Source of the DNA: Microcaldota archaeon | GTDB taxonomy: Archaea > Micrarchaeota > Micrarchaeia > Anstonellales > Bilamarchaeaceae | DNA: 32,782 bases | Direction: 5' to 3' | Assembly: GCA_023248035.1 (NCBI GenBank) | Contig: JAHFFJ010000011.1 | Coordinates: 1 to 32,782 of the forward strand | Part shown: positions 15,194 to 21,832 of the stretch, in pieces | Layout of the letters: every line of letters begins with the position of its first letter | Numbering within the stretch: position 1 is the stretch's first letter | Made by a program: the position numbers and the translations under genes | Notes under the pieces: model-generated | What the model was told of the DNA's origin: nothing | Database searches by the model: none | What the model saw: only the letters and a program-made list of their open reading frames with translations

Positions 15194-17689
15194 CTACCTA
15201 CGCATAAAATCCTCAGCCAACTTTTGAGCTTCATCATCGCTAAACTGCTTTGGCGGGTGCTTCATCAACCAGGCACTAGGGCCAATAAGAGGCCCACTAA
15301 TTTTACGATCAAGTGCCAACCTGCAATATCTTATTGCATCTATTACTATTCCTGCACTGTTTGCTTTATCGTCTACCTCAAGTCTAACCTCCATGTTGAA
15401 AGGTATTCCGGCCCACATTTTCCCTTCAATACGCATGAACATCAGTTTAGTATTACCTAAAAATGGGATAAAATCGCTTGGACCAACATAAATCTTATCA
15501 TCATCAAGGCGTTCTGAAAGCTGAGACTGCACTGATTCAGTTTTGGAAATCTTTTTTGAGTGTAATCTTTCCTGCTCCTTCATGGAAAGGAAATCGGTGT
15601 TATGGACAAGTATGTTAGAACATACAAATCGCTCATAATGCGGGACACTCACGTCATATACGTACTGGGGTTCTGAGTTCAGTTTCTTTATTGATTTTAT
15701 CTTCAAAAAACGCGTATCACCAAAACAAATATCTGCTATCTTTTGTCGTTCTCGTTCATCCTTAACCTTTTGTAACTGCCTTCGGACAGTGTTTGCTTTC
15801 ATGGTTGGAAACTTCGACCAGCTTGTTGATTTTATGCCCCATTTTCTGAGTAAATCAAATTTTGGTATGATGTGAGTTTCACCTTTGGTCAGATTTCCTG
15901 CTGCAACCTGTAACCTTTCATTTTTCTTGCTTTGTATAAAACCAATTTTTTCAATGAATAACTCCACATCTTCTTTTGAAGAAAGCACACAGTGTGTTAT
16001 ATAAGGAAGATTACTTTTGTAAGAATCTTTTCTAAATTTGTTTTTATAATCTTCTTTGAAAACTGTTGCATTTATGCCCAGTCTTAGAAGTAGGGTTCTT
16101 ATGTCCTCTGCAAGTTCATCTGAGGCAGTTGTTATCCTTACCTGGTTTCCAGTTACTGTTCCATCACCGCTAAAGTAACCTCTTAGTACGAGTGCCATCT
16201 GACTATCTGAAAGATCAAATACCCAACCAGGAACTCTTTTTGTATATGAATTACCGCTTAATCCAAGTGCCATTCTAAATATTTTTCCAACTGTCTTTGA
16301 CATAATACGTACAGAAACCTGTTTTTCTCCTCTGATCTGATAACCTATGTTATGTGCAGATGCGAAACTCTCGATTACCTCCATACAATCAGGATCATTA
16401 CCGCAGGCAATTTCTATATTTGCGGAGCCTACCCTATCAAAATTCCCATCGGCAAGCCACAACCCAGTTATTTGAAGTAGATCCGGAGTAATAGGATATT
16501 CAATAGGAATTCTTATCTCAGGATGATTGTGAACAGCAATCTCGCCTCTTTCGTTAATTCCCTGTACAAAAAGTTCCTTAAGATACGGTATCAAACTTAT
16601 ACTCTTTAGTTCTTCTCTCTCCTCAAGCATGAGGCTTCTGGGAGCAGCAATCCGAGTTTCCTTTTCTTTGAGTTCGCATGCAGGTACAGATTCAAGTTCG
16701 CCACTTGGATTTAGAATAAAAAGATTGTGATCTTTTGTAACAGTTATTTTTCTTCCTTCATGGGTTTCGATTTCGTATAATTCTTGATCAATTCTATGCC
16801 TTATAAGAGCTGATACATTTACTGGTACAGTTTTAAAATTTTCATCGATAGTGAAACATTGAAGATTTTGGTCACTTCGAATTACATCTACTACCTCTTT
16901 TCCATCTCCCCGAGTTTCACCGTACAAACTAATCCAGTCATCTATAAACTTGCCTATTCGTGTTCGTATGGTCTTACCGTTATTTATAAACAAAATTTCC
17001 TGATCTCCCTTTACACTGTTTCCGCCAACATTTATCTGGTAGGTTTTTTCGATTTTAGCCCCTCGTTTATCGCACAGCTTGGCGAGGGTACGATGAACTA
17101 TGGTGGCACCCACCATCCCCTTAATATCATCCCCTATAATCGGAACTCCAGCTTCCTCAAACTTCTTTGCCCATGCTGGTTCAGATGCAATAAATGATGG
17201 CATGCAGTTTACAAAGCCAATTTTTAAATCAAGGCAGATCTGAGCCCAAAACTTGGTTGCTTGATCTGCTCCAACTGGTAAGTAAGAAACCAAAATCTCA
17301 ACTTTCTTCTCTTTAATTTCCTTTATTATTTCTTGTTTAAGATCCTCAAGCGGTCTTTCACTAACTGGTGCCACTATCTTGTTAACATAAATTCCAACAC
17401 CATCGAGTTGGGGTGATTGCTTAACTATAACATTCATGGAAGAGAGTTTTTCCACCCATCTGACCTTGTTTGGTGGTGCATAAACTGCCTCATTAAGAGA
17501 TTTCCCAACTTTTTTCGAATCAACATCAAAAGCAGCCACAAAACCTATATCGTATATCGTATACCCTCCCATGCTGGGGTGCATAACTCCCACTATCTGC
17601 TCGCTTGGGTTGTTTCTATAGTATTCTATTCCCTGAACCAGGCCTGCAAAGCAATTTCCAATACCAACTACAGCACAGCGTATTTTCAT
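15194..17689 (-). CDS. ino1: Inositol-3-phosphate synthase precursor, interrupted by an intein
   Basis: Converts glucose 6-phosphate to inositol 3-phosphate with NAD, feeding inositol lipids or compatible solutes. The N-terminal extein starts with the nucleotide-binding VVGIGNCFAGLVQG (7-20 from the ATG). The family motif GGNTDF is split: the N-extein ends INVGGN, the intein follows, and the C-extein resumes TDFLSMKEQERLHSKK. Spliced length is 358 residues, right for the archaeal short form. The C-extein keeps VGPSDFIPFLGNTK and MEVRLEVDDKANSAG. The ATG at 17689 is preferred: AGTGATT just upstream is ribosome-binding-site-like, although a GTG at 17698 would add three residues. A TATA-like CTTTAAAAAAAC (minus strand, near 17725-17733) lies upstream. 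The enzyme should be inactive until splicing, because the insertion is in its most conserved region. Confidence 0.95.
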   Translation of the reverse strand: MKIRCAVVGIGNCFAGLVQGIEYYRNNPSEQIVGVMHPSMGGYTIYDIGFVAAFDVDSKKVGKSLNEAVYAPPNKVRWVEKLSSMNVIVKQSPQLDGVGIYVNKIVAPVSERPLEDLKQEIIKEIKEKKVEILVSYLPVGADQATKFWAQICLDLKIGFVNCMPSFIASEPAWAKKFEEAGVPIIGDDIKGMVGATIVHRTLAKLCDKRGAKIEKTYQINVGGNSVKGDQEILFINNGKTIRTRIGKFIDDWISLYGETRGDGKEVVDVIRSDQNLQCFTIDENFKTVPVNVSALIRHRIDQELYEIETHEGRKITVTKDHNLFILNPSGELESVPACELKEKETRIAAPRSLMLEEREELKSISLIPYLKELFVQGINERGEIAVHNHPEIRIPIEYPITPDLLQITGLWLADGNFDRVGSANIEIACGNDPDCMEVIESFASAHNIGYQIRGEKQVSVRIMSKTVGKIFRMALGLSGNSYTKRVPGWVFDLSDSQMALVLRGYFSGDGTVTGNQVRITTASDELAEDIRTLLLRLGINATVFKEDYKNKFRKDSYKSNLPYITHCVLSSKEDVELFIEKIGFIQSKKNERLQVAAGNLTKGETHIIPKFDLLRKWGIKSTSWSKFPTMKANTVRRQLQKVKDERERQKIADICFGDTRFLKIKSIKKLNSEPQYVYDVSVPHYERFVCSNILVHNTDFLSMKEQERLHSKKISKTESVQSQLSERLDDDKIYVGPSDFIPFLGNTKLMFMRIEGKMWAGIPFNMEVRLEVDDKANSAGIVIDAIRYCRLALDRKISGPLIGPSAWLMKHPPKQFSDDEAQKLAEDFMRR
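15599..17017 (-). mobile_element. Intein with LAGLIDADG homing endonuclease (473 aa)
   Basis: A protein intron that excises itself and joins the flanking extein parts. It begins with Ser (SVKGDQEILF, block A, Ser as nucleophile instead of the commoner Cys) and ends with block F YVYDVSVPHYERF and block G SNILVHN, i.e. the His-Asn end; the +1 extein residue is Thr. Block B is ITVTKDHNLF with the TxxH motif. The two endonuclease motifs are LLQITGLWLADG and LVLRGYFSGDGTV, each with an acidic residue, so the homing endonuclease looks intact. All splicing residues are present, so splicing and homing are both plausible. Codon use and base composition do not stand out from the host gene. Confidence 0.93.
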
Positions 17690-17698
17690 TTTAATCAC

Positions 17699-20395: not shown

Positions 20396-20424
20396 AAAAT
20401 CAGTAATAAAAATAGGATAGCATA

Positions 20425-20452: not shown

Positions 20453-20677
20453 GCAGACGGATCGAAAAAATAACAATAAGTTTTGGTTCCGCTTTTCGCG
20501 GCACGTCCTTTTAGGGCGTGCCTCTAGCGGAGGGGTTTTCAAATCAAACCGGAGTAAATAAGGTTGACGGATCGAAAACCGACCGGTGTCGGTAAGGAGT
20601 GGGTTTTCAAATCAAACCGGAGTAAATAAGGTTGACGGATCGAAAACCGACCGGTGTCGGTAAGGAGTGGGTTTTCA
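20453..20677 (+). promoter_or_regulatory. Long structured leader of the aminotransferase gene
   Basis: The leader contains no ATG. First comes a stem-loop: GGCACGTCCT/AGGGCGTGCC (20500-20509 with 20513-20522, 10 bp with one G-T), enclosed by TCCGC/GCGGA (20488-20492 with 20527-20531). Then follow two exact 68-bp units. In each unit GAAAACC can pair with the GGTTTTC after it, enclosing CCGAC/GTCGG and the purine-rich AAGGAGTGG. In the last unit that AAGGAG (20662-20667) is the ribosome-binding site of the gene, and GGTTTTC ends 1 nt before the ATG. GGTTTTC can equally pair with the GAAAACC downstream within its unit, so two exclusive folds are possible. Confidence 0.6.
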
Positions 20678-20678
20678 A
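20533..20678 (+). repeat. Perfect 68-bp tandem repeat, 2.15 copies
   Basis: Units 20533-20600 and 20601-20668 are identical, and a third partial unit (GGGTTTTCAA, 20669-20678) runs into the start codon. A further GACGGATCGAAAA (20456-20468) upstream marks an older, diverged copy. The identity suggests recent duplication or constraint. Confidence 0.95.
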
Positions 20679-21832
20679 TGATTGAACCATCAAAAAGAAG
20701 TGAACTTGTTTCTTATCCAATTCGGGATATTGTCCAGGAAGCAAAAAGGCTGGAAAAGCAAGGGACACAAATGATCTATTTGAATATCGGTGACCCTGCA
20801 CCATTTGGTTTCCGTCCGCCACAGCATGTACTTGATGCAGCTGCTCATGCCCTCACGCAAAACTATTCTGGTTATGCACCCTCAGATGGAGATCCAGAAC
20901 TTAAAGAAGCGGTTGCAAGTTTTGAAAAGGTCGCACCAGAAGACGTTTTCATTACTGCAGGCCTTAGTGAAGGTATCGATTTTCTTTTCCAGGCAATGGT
21001 GGATCCAGGGAGAAACATAATACTTCCTGTTCCAACCTATCCGCTTTATCTTACCAAAGAGCGCATCAGTTATGGGACTATAGAATTCTATGACTGTGAC
21101 GAAAAATTTGAACCAGATCCTGATAGTCTTCGTAAAAATATAAACAAATATACCAAGGCGATTCTCGTAATAAATCCGAACAACCCTACCGGTGCAGTCT
21201 ACTCACGTAAAACCCTTCAAAGCATAATCGATATCGCAGGTGAGAGCAAACTTCCTATAATCAGTGATGATGTCTATGATCAGATGGTTTTTGATGGTGA
21301 AATAACCAACATGCGTGACATCTGCAAAGATGTTCCTGTGGTGTGCGGAAATAGTCTCTCAAAAAACTATATCTACCCCGGTGCGCGTGCAGGCTACCTT
21401 GCTTTCCACGGTGAAGGCTGGGATAAAATGAAGGATGCAGTTCAACGCCTCTGCAACCAGCGGCTTTCGGTAAACTGGGAAATGCAGCGGGCATATATTG
21501 CTGCTATTAAAGGTTCTCATGATCACATCCATAAATTCAACAGTGAGCTCAAAAAAAGGCGCGATATTCTTGTAAAAAGAGTGAAGGAAATAGATGGTCT
21601 TAGCGTTGCTCCGCCAAAAGGTGCATTCTATTCTTTCATAAAAGTTGAAAGCGATAAATGGAAGAACGATACTGAATTTGTCCGTGGCCTCCTAAAATGT
21701 GGTGTTGTAGTAGTTCCAGGTTCAGGTTTTGCGCCAAATATGGATGGAAAATACTTTCGTCTTGTTTTCCTTCCAAAACCAGAGCAGCTTGATGAAGCAT
21801 TCAACAGGATTGAGAAATTTGTCAAGGGCTAG
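20678..21832 (+). CDS. Class I/II aminotransferase (alanine aminotransferase-like)
   Basis: A PLP-dependent aminotransferase of 384 residues. It begins KRSELVSYPIRDIVQEAKRL and LNIGDPAPF, as in archaeal alanine/aspartate aminotransferases. Visible are NPNNPTG (166-172), the cofactor Asp and Tyr in SDDVYD (197-201 region; D198, Y200), the PLP Lys in NSLSKNYIYPGAR (K229) and the substrate-binding Arg near the C-terminus (FRLVF). A GTG at 20654 would add eight residues, but these lie inside the repeat unit; the ATG at 20678, 10 nt after AAGGAG, is preferred. Substrate preference (Ala/Glu) is inferred from the N-terminal pattern. Expression may be controlled by the structured leader. Confidence 0.93.
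   Translation: MIEPSKRSELVSYPIRDIVQEAKRLEKQGTQMIYLNIGDPAPFGFRPPQHVLDAAAHALTQNYSGYAPSDGDPELKEAVASFEKVAPEDVFITAGLSEGIDFLFQAMVDPGRNIILPVPTYPLYLTKERISYGTIEFYDCDEKFEPDPDSLRKNINKYTKAILVINPNNPTGAVYSRKTLQSIIDIAGESKLPIISDDVYDQMVFDGEITNMRDICKDVPVVCGNSLSKNYIYPGARAGYLAFHGEGWDKMKDAVQRLCNQRLSVNWEMQRAYIAAIKGSHDHIHKFNSELKKRRDILVKRVKEIDGLSVAPPKGAFYSFIKVESDKWKNDTEFVRGLLKCGVVVVPGSGFAPNMDGKYFRLVFLPKPEQLDEAFNRIEKFVKG

Follow-up and report, generated by a model that had tools for sequence, protein, structure and literature searches.

Why should the ribosome-binding site of an aminotransferase gene lie in a tandemly duplicated hairpin that ends exactly on the start codon, and does such an arrangement serve this gene or belong to something that recurs elsewhere? 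The window, by which we mean the whole stretch of DNA that was analysed (32,782 nucleotides), is contig C78 of a 1.17-Mb assembly (G000), and the nearest named relatives of its aminotransferase come from Candidatus Micrarchaeota. The original prediction saw in this leader a translational switch, perhaps responding to an amino acid or keto acid of the enzyme. Its description of two 68-bp units followed by a third box at the aminotransferase ATG is confirmed, the units (20533-20600 and 20601-20668) being 100% identical, and the locus is laid out as follows.

20400..20416, + strand: probable aminotransferase promoter TCAGTAATAAAAATAGG, judged by its likeness by eye to the AATAAAAAC block of relatives
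20456..20541, + strand: first, diverged element copy, GACGGATCGAAAA ... TTTTGGTTCCGC...GCGGAGGGGTTTTC, aligned with the C55 and C62 copies
20500..20522, + strand: nested 10-bp stem-loop within the inner hairpin of the first copy, missing from the C55, C62 and C81 copies
20533..20600, + strand: 68-bp repeat unit 1
20555..20612, + strand: element core B (covariance model match, E ~1e-11)
20601..20668, + strand: second 68-bp repeat unit, with the same sequence as unit 1
20623..20680, + strand: element core C, which runs up to and includes the start codon of the aminotransferase (covariance model match, E ~2e-11)
20632..20685, + strand: possible coupled upstream open reading frame (uORF) as read from the sequence, with a TTG start and a TGA that reaches 8 nt into the main ORF
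20642..20648, + strand: anti-box C, GAAAACC, 5' arm of helix B (covarying helix)
20662..20667, + strand: AAGGAG, ribosome-binding site within helix B, ~10 nt 5' of the ATG (sequence)
20669-20678, + strand: third partial box GGGTTTTCAA, extending into the ATG at 20678
20670..20676, + strand: D-box GGTTTTC, 3' arm of helix B, abutting the start codon (covarying helix and position data)
20678..21832, + strand: class I/II aminotransferase of 384 aa; archaeal alanine aminotransferase PRK08363 is nearest, though its cut-off is not reached

GAAAACC starts at 20574 and 20642 in this leader, and GGTTTTC at 20534, 20602 and 20670. The 10-bp stem-loop upstream of the units does exist at 20500-20522; however, it had been taken for a separate structure inside an outer stem, and comparison with the C55 and C62 copies, which precede an antitoxin and a hydrolase, respectively, makes it part of the diverged first copy. 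With its extra nested hairpin, this copy represents a third type of element. A AATAAAAAC block stands upstream of the leader in many relatives, and the promoter-like block at 20400-20416 suggests that the leader is probably transcribed. Among the orthologous loci (stretches L105-L123), a palindrome, CGTCNNNNGACGTAT, followed by AATAAAAAC is conserved upstream of the aminotransferase and is likely to be an operator plus promoter in many relatives. Elsewhere in the window, the complementary strand carries an inositol-1-phosphate-synthase-like ORF (15194-17698, - strand) that is apparently split by an intein (SVKGDQEILF ... VHN).

Two mutually exclusive GAAAACC/GGTTTTC pairings had been proposed for the leader, and both are feasible by computed energies: the hairpin around the ribosome site comes to -10.9 kcal/mol, and the alternative, in which box B pairs with the GAAAACC of unit C, to -13.3 kcal/mol. 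The position of the ribosome site inside a hairpin is likewise supported. In the ensemble of the full leader, the alternative has a predicted pairing probability of ~0.88, with the AAGGAG then predicted to be paired elsewhere. Any holding back of translation at the aminotransferase would, on this folding model, depend on which pairing wins, and we do not commit ourselves as to which is the on and which the off state. When compared with shuffled sequences, the full leader is not exceptionally stable (z = -1.7); thus, folding energy alone is no proof of structure, and the support comes from covariation in relatives.

Such relatives of the leader are numerous. With counts for G000 that rest on searches and fetched stretches, blastn with the leader gave 14 matches in its own genome, the best ones outside the window (98% and 94% identity over 81-83 bp) lying upstream of the genes for an exosome-like protein and for ribosomal protein L39e, and a pattern search for GGTTGACGGATCGAAAACCGAC with at most three mismatches gave 14 copies, as opposed to 0 for the reversed control. 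Pattern searches of the genus found copies also in G004, G010, G011, G013 and G015. A covariance model built from an alignment of 21 copies then matched 49 times (E up to 0.001) in 8 of 17 congeneric Micrarchaeota genomes, and found no element in the other 67 of the order's 84 genomes. The consensus reads AGATGGGGAT-NX-AAAACCCC, a variable loop of ~15 nt, and GAGGGTTTT-Y-AA(A)TG, with copies of 59 to 68 nt and two subtypes, GGGG..CCCC and ACGG..CCGAC, both of which occur in G000 and G013. Tandem arrays comprise two units at the window, five before Nop10 and at least two before RpoL in G011. Rfam returned no match, the viral contigs contained no exact match to two element patterns, and literature searches on Micrarchaeota repeats or riboswitches found nothing.

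The same genomes harbour further structured repeats. A second dispersed hairpin family, AAAGGAGATTAGAAAAGAACCTTGGTTCTTTTC with variants whose arms change in a matched way, is found in G000 (e.g., stretches L014, L058, L062 and L074) and in G013 (stretch L301), in tandem in leaders and at gene ends, and often within the loop of the first element. In G009, G010, G011 and G013 (stretches L158, L163, L183, L195, L204, L205 and L242), an insert resembling a cruciform (ATGTC ... GACAT) interrupts the element at a constant place, after GGGGAT and ahead of NXAAAACCCC. Finally, tRNA-like 3' halves follow long hairpin-rich stretches (L019 and L080), possibly reflecting large tRNA introns; ARAGORN calls no tRNA there.

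When the copies are aligned, the stem behaves as a paired structure. At the closing pair X-Y, 24 G-C, 20 C-G and 3 A-U combinations are found besides 2 unpaired or other ones (n=49, from 53 model-aligned matches), and double-changed cells number 30 as against 9.5 in shuffles, a signal that collapses when the partner is slid, although this count comes from an alignment fitted to the covariance model. The seed alignment, in which the gapped search pattern left X and Y free, gives 12 GC, 8 CG and 1 mismatch; the AAAACC/GGTTTT core, by comparison, is invariant partly because the pattern demanded it. One pair of helix A (GGGG with CCCC) likewise shows 13 GC, 7 CG and 1 GU, and its double changes track the two subtypes, so that the number of events may be few. 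A divergent G011 copy (AAAGAACCACC...GGAGGTTCTTTATATG) keeps the pairing with other bases. Judged from these compensatory changes, the stem of the element is real, and the view that the structure is archaeal, with real and conserved stems, is borne out by the covariance search over relatives.

The position of the element is as constrained as its structure: inspected copies share the strand of the downstream gene, and for 39 of 44 the distance from the end of the GGTTTT box to the ATG of a long ORF is 1-4 nt. Of the five exceptions, three are tandem units with the next unit 3' of them, and the others are SerRS, whose ATG follows at 11 nt, and a G015 pilin copy without a close ATG (stretch L165, C3), which, translated in frame, could lengthen a class III signal-peptide (pilin-like) protein at its N terminus. 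The genes concerned, named from a reading of their translations, include L11, L14, L22, L29, L39e, S14, RpoL (RNA polymerase L), SerRS, IleRS, aRF1, Nop10, PEP synthase, ferredoxin, PDH E1 beta, V-ATPase D, PurD, FEN1, aroA, cmk, ScpB, HD hydrolase, dCTP deaminase, pilins and an antitoxin. So broad a set is hard to reconcile with a switch that senses a single aminotransferase metabolite. A ligand- or protein-sensing translational switch of this gene, duplicated like tandem riboswitches, would explain the exclusive pairings around the ribosome site and the covarying stem, and one orthologous aminotransferase besides that of the window, in LFW-283_2, does carry a clear full copy. However, nearly all other orthologues read do not, the same element precedes dozens of unrelated genes, its loop is variable and no large conserved aptamer core or Rfam match is present, and it behaves as an insertion. 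The amino-acid or keto-acid switch originally proposed is therefore extremely improbable.

What we consider probable instead is a small dispersed insertion element of one Micrarchaeota genus, placed at or next to start codons, similar in kind to the mycobacterial MIRUs, and keeping its host genes translated by coupling. Copies recur at the same gene across species (PEP synthase in three; L11, ScpB, ferredoxin, HD hydrolase and RpoL in two each), and, of 14 inspected cases of a bare GAGGGTTTT directly before the ATG, without the rest of the element, 8 belong to genes that have the full element in other species, where the background of 35 of 1300 genes is an assumption. Together with the covariation of both helices A and B, these observations would suit a true regulon, in which a cis-acting RNA element is selected at translation and central-metabolism genes, its GAGGGTTTT box is bound by a trans-acting protein or antisense RNA, and the set of genes has grown by mobility. 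Nevertheless, the gene set also takes in r-proteins, FEN1, dCTP deaminase, pilins and an antitoxin, the distribution is very patchy among close relatives, no trans-acting partner was identified, and the T-rich boxes after GAGG may be plain ribosome sites, as in PEP synthase leaders, so that we regard this reading as unlikely. Quite unlikely, too, is the more specific idea of a mobile translational-control module that spreads between start codons in a DPANN archaeon and installs a two-state ribosome-site switch at each host gene, assembling a regulon of translation and central metabolism under one trans-acting factor. Recurrence at the same gene and bare boxes in further species also fit long-term vertical retention or function; the bare boxes may reflect excision between repeated boxes, or they may be the ordinary ribosome site of the genus, as the PEP synthase leaders suggest.

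That the copies are insertions, as expected for a dispersed mobile element, follows from sites found both empty and filled. At S14, G013 has a precise 59-nt insert after ATGAAG where its sister G014 has the empty site GTCGAGTGATATTTATGAAGCTGACAACC; the flanks are identical to the empty site at 35 of 35 positions, and TTATGAAG is present at both borders. At L14, G013 alone carries the element, the other 15 genomes in the comparison having empty sites; at L22, the site is filled in G015 and empty in the other four genomes where the gene was found, with TATGAA as its flank repeat; and at PEP synthase, G015 has a filled site and its close relative G009 an empty one. All four empty sites place the insertion at a start codon or a stop/start junction. 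The repeated flank at SerRS, GAAGTGAT, is where the upstream gene ends. Over all copies without an upstream box, the excess of direct repeats is marginal (permutation p ~0.05), while individual loci (S14, SerRS) show a clear target duplication. Mobility of the element is well supported. A purely local origin, in which native leaders with GAGGGTTTT boxes gained anti-boxes in place as a mini-satellite expands, could draw on the native-like bare boxes in relatives and on the tandem arrays, but it is contradicted by the empty sites: the S14 insert is precise, those at L14 and L22 are similar, and relatives have unrelated ribosome sites there. With near-identical copies also standing at unrelated genes, local expansion without mobility is very improbable.

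As to what might move the element, no terminal inverted repeats were seen by eye at the ends of filled sites, only the internal arms being inverted, which speaks against a MITE of a DDE transposon; no autonomous partner element was found. A REP element moved by a Y1 tyrosine transposase (RAYT) is suggested by the short palindromic repeats and by the distribution of PF01797 genes, which are present in 4 of 4 element-rich genomes and in 1 of 13 others (Fisher p = 0.002; the count includes a G013 gene that is a fragment at a contig end). The Y1 transposase genes of the four element-rich genomes and the one other lie in stretches L284, L285 (G000), L286, L287 and L288. While the distribution fits, the flanks do not: the Y1 genes have their own unrelated, IS200-style flanking hairpins, and no element copy lies beside five of the six PF01797 matches, whose flanks were read by eye (Y1 genes in G000, G011, G012 and G015). 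Moreover, a strict start-codon position is not a REP trait, and REP and IS200 insertions are not known to duplicate their target, making RAYT-driven movement improbable.

The favoured insertion element must still allow for the expression of its host genes, and here the reading frame that crosses it is informative. In 13 of 26 copies with an ATG 55-75 nt upstream, some of them closely related and hence not 13 independent events, an uninterrupted uORF ends with a TGA that overlaps the main ATG; shuffles yield a mean of 5.0, and 0 of 2000 reach 13. The frame of the uORF relative to the conserved core varies between copies and the stop position is kept, which indicates that the stop position, rather than the peptide, is what is maintained, and a role of the encoded peptides (RWG[SY]KTP-like) as the main driver was rejected on this ground. 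In the window's own copies, no internal ORF with a 4-nt overlap of the gene start is present, the usual uORF ATG being lost to ATC in copies B and C.

We infer the following course of events. The element would insert at or adjoining a start codon, whereupon the native ribosome site and ATG would open a short uORF through it, as they now do at PEP synthase in G015, and its right end (GAGGGTTTTNAA or similar) would provide another ribosome-site box immediately in front of the gene's ATG. Lying between these two boxes, the GAAAACC anti-box could pair with either, masking one ribosome site at a time. In translating the uORF, a ribosome would melt the hairpin before terminating at the ATGA overlap, and the gene would thereby stay translated through coupling. 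Since the element brings its own ribosome site and mini-gene, insertion probably does not silence the gene. Repeated boxes would in turn permit tandem expansion by recombination, from which the two identical units of the window may have arisen.

When compared with known systems, the leader resembles tandem riboswitches in its repeated structured modules near the ribosome site, but it differs from them in having no aptamer-like conserved core and no shared pathway among its genes, and in being mobile. Rickettsia palindromic elements, which lie in frame inside genes, are likewise hairpins tolerated in or at coding sequences (compare the in-frame G015 pilin copy), whereas the present elements sit before the start codon. 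REP, REPIN and BIME repeats with RAYT transposases are short dispersed palindromic DNA with lineage-specific copy numbers (PMC3116915, PMC2817692). The present element shares these features, but is oriented with its genes, sits at start codons and has direct repeats at fresh insertions, and an associated RAYT was not found. The closest likeness is to the mycobacterial interspersed repetitive units (MIRUs), reportedly the subject of work by Supply and colleagues in 1997, which form tandem arrays and have a DTGA target that the flanking RTGA of the present element resembles. The modules of the window are duplicated, as the original prediction had it, but by analogy repeat duplication as in MIRU arrays would fit better than its comparison with tandem riboswitches. 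MIRUs are not known for dyad symmetry, and a covarying hairpin with two alternative ribosome-site boxes sets the present element apart. According to a review of translational coupling (PMC12548453), MIRUs are short, apparently mobile repeats that enter at start codons and bring an ORF whose coupling to the gene is at -4 nt (ATGA), and the present element agrees with them in these features. The statement that no such layout had been described is thus half right: start-codon insertion and a coupled ORF are shared with MIRUs (PMC12548453), and the hairpin with alternative boxes is an added feature. The present element is archaeal and confined to one genus, and the likeness concerns described features, not compared sequences, so that we claim sameness of kind and not membership: a MIRU-like archaeal element that has, in addition, a conserved ribosome-site hairpin. 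Elements of this type have been described for mycobacteria. A separate example from a reduced archaeon, documented by empty sites and by compensatory changes that preserve its base-paired ribosome-site hairpin, would suggest that coupling-preserving insertion is a general strategy. It also makes it possible to test how a mobile element can occupy essential genes, such as those of ribosomal proteins, and leave them active, and by what means it moves.
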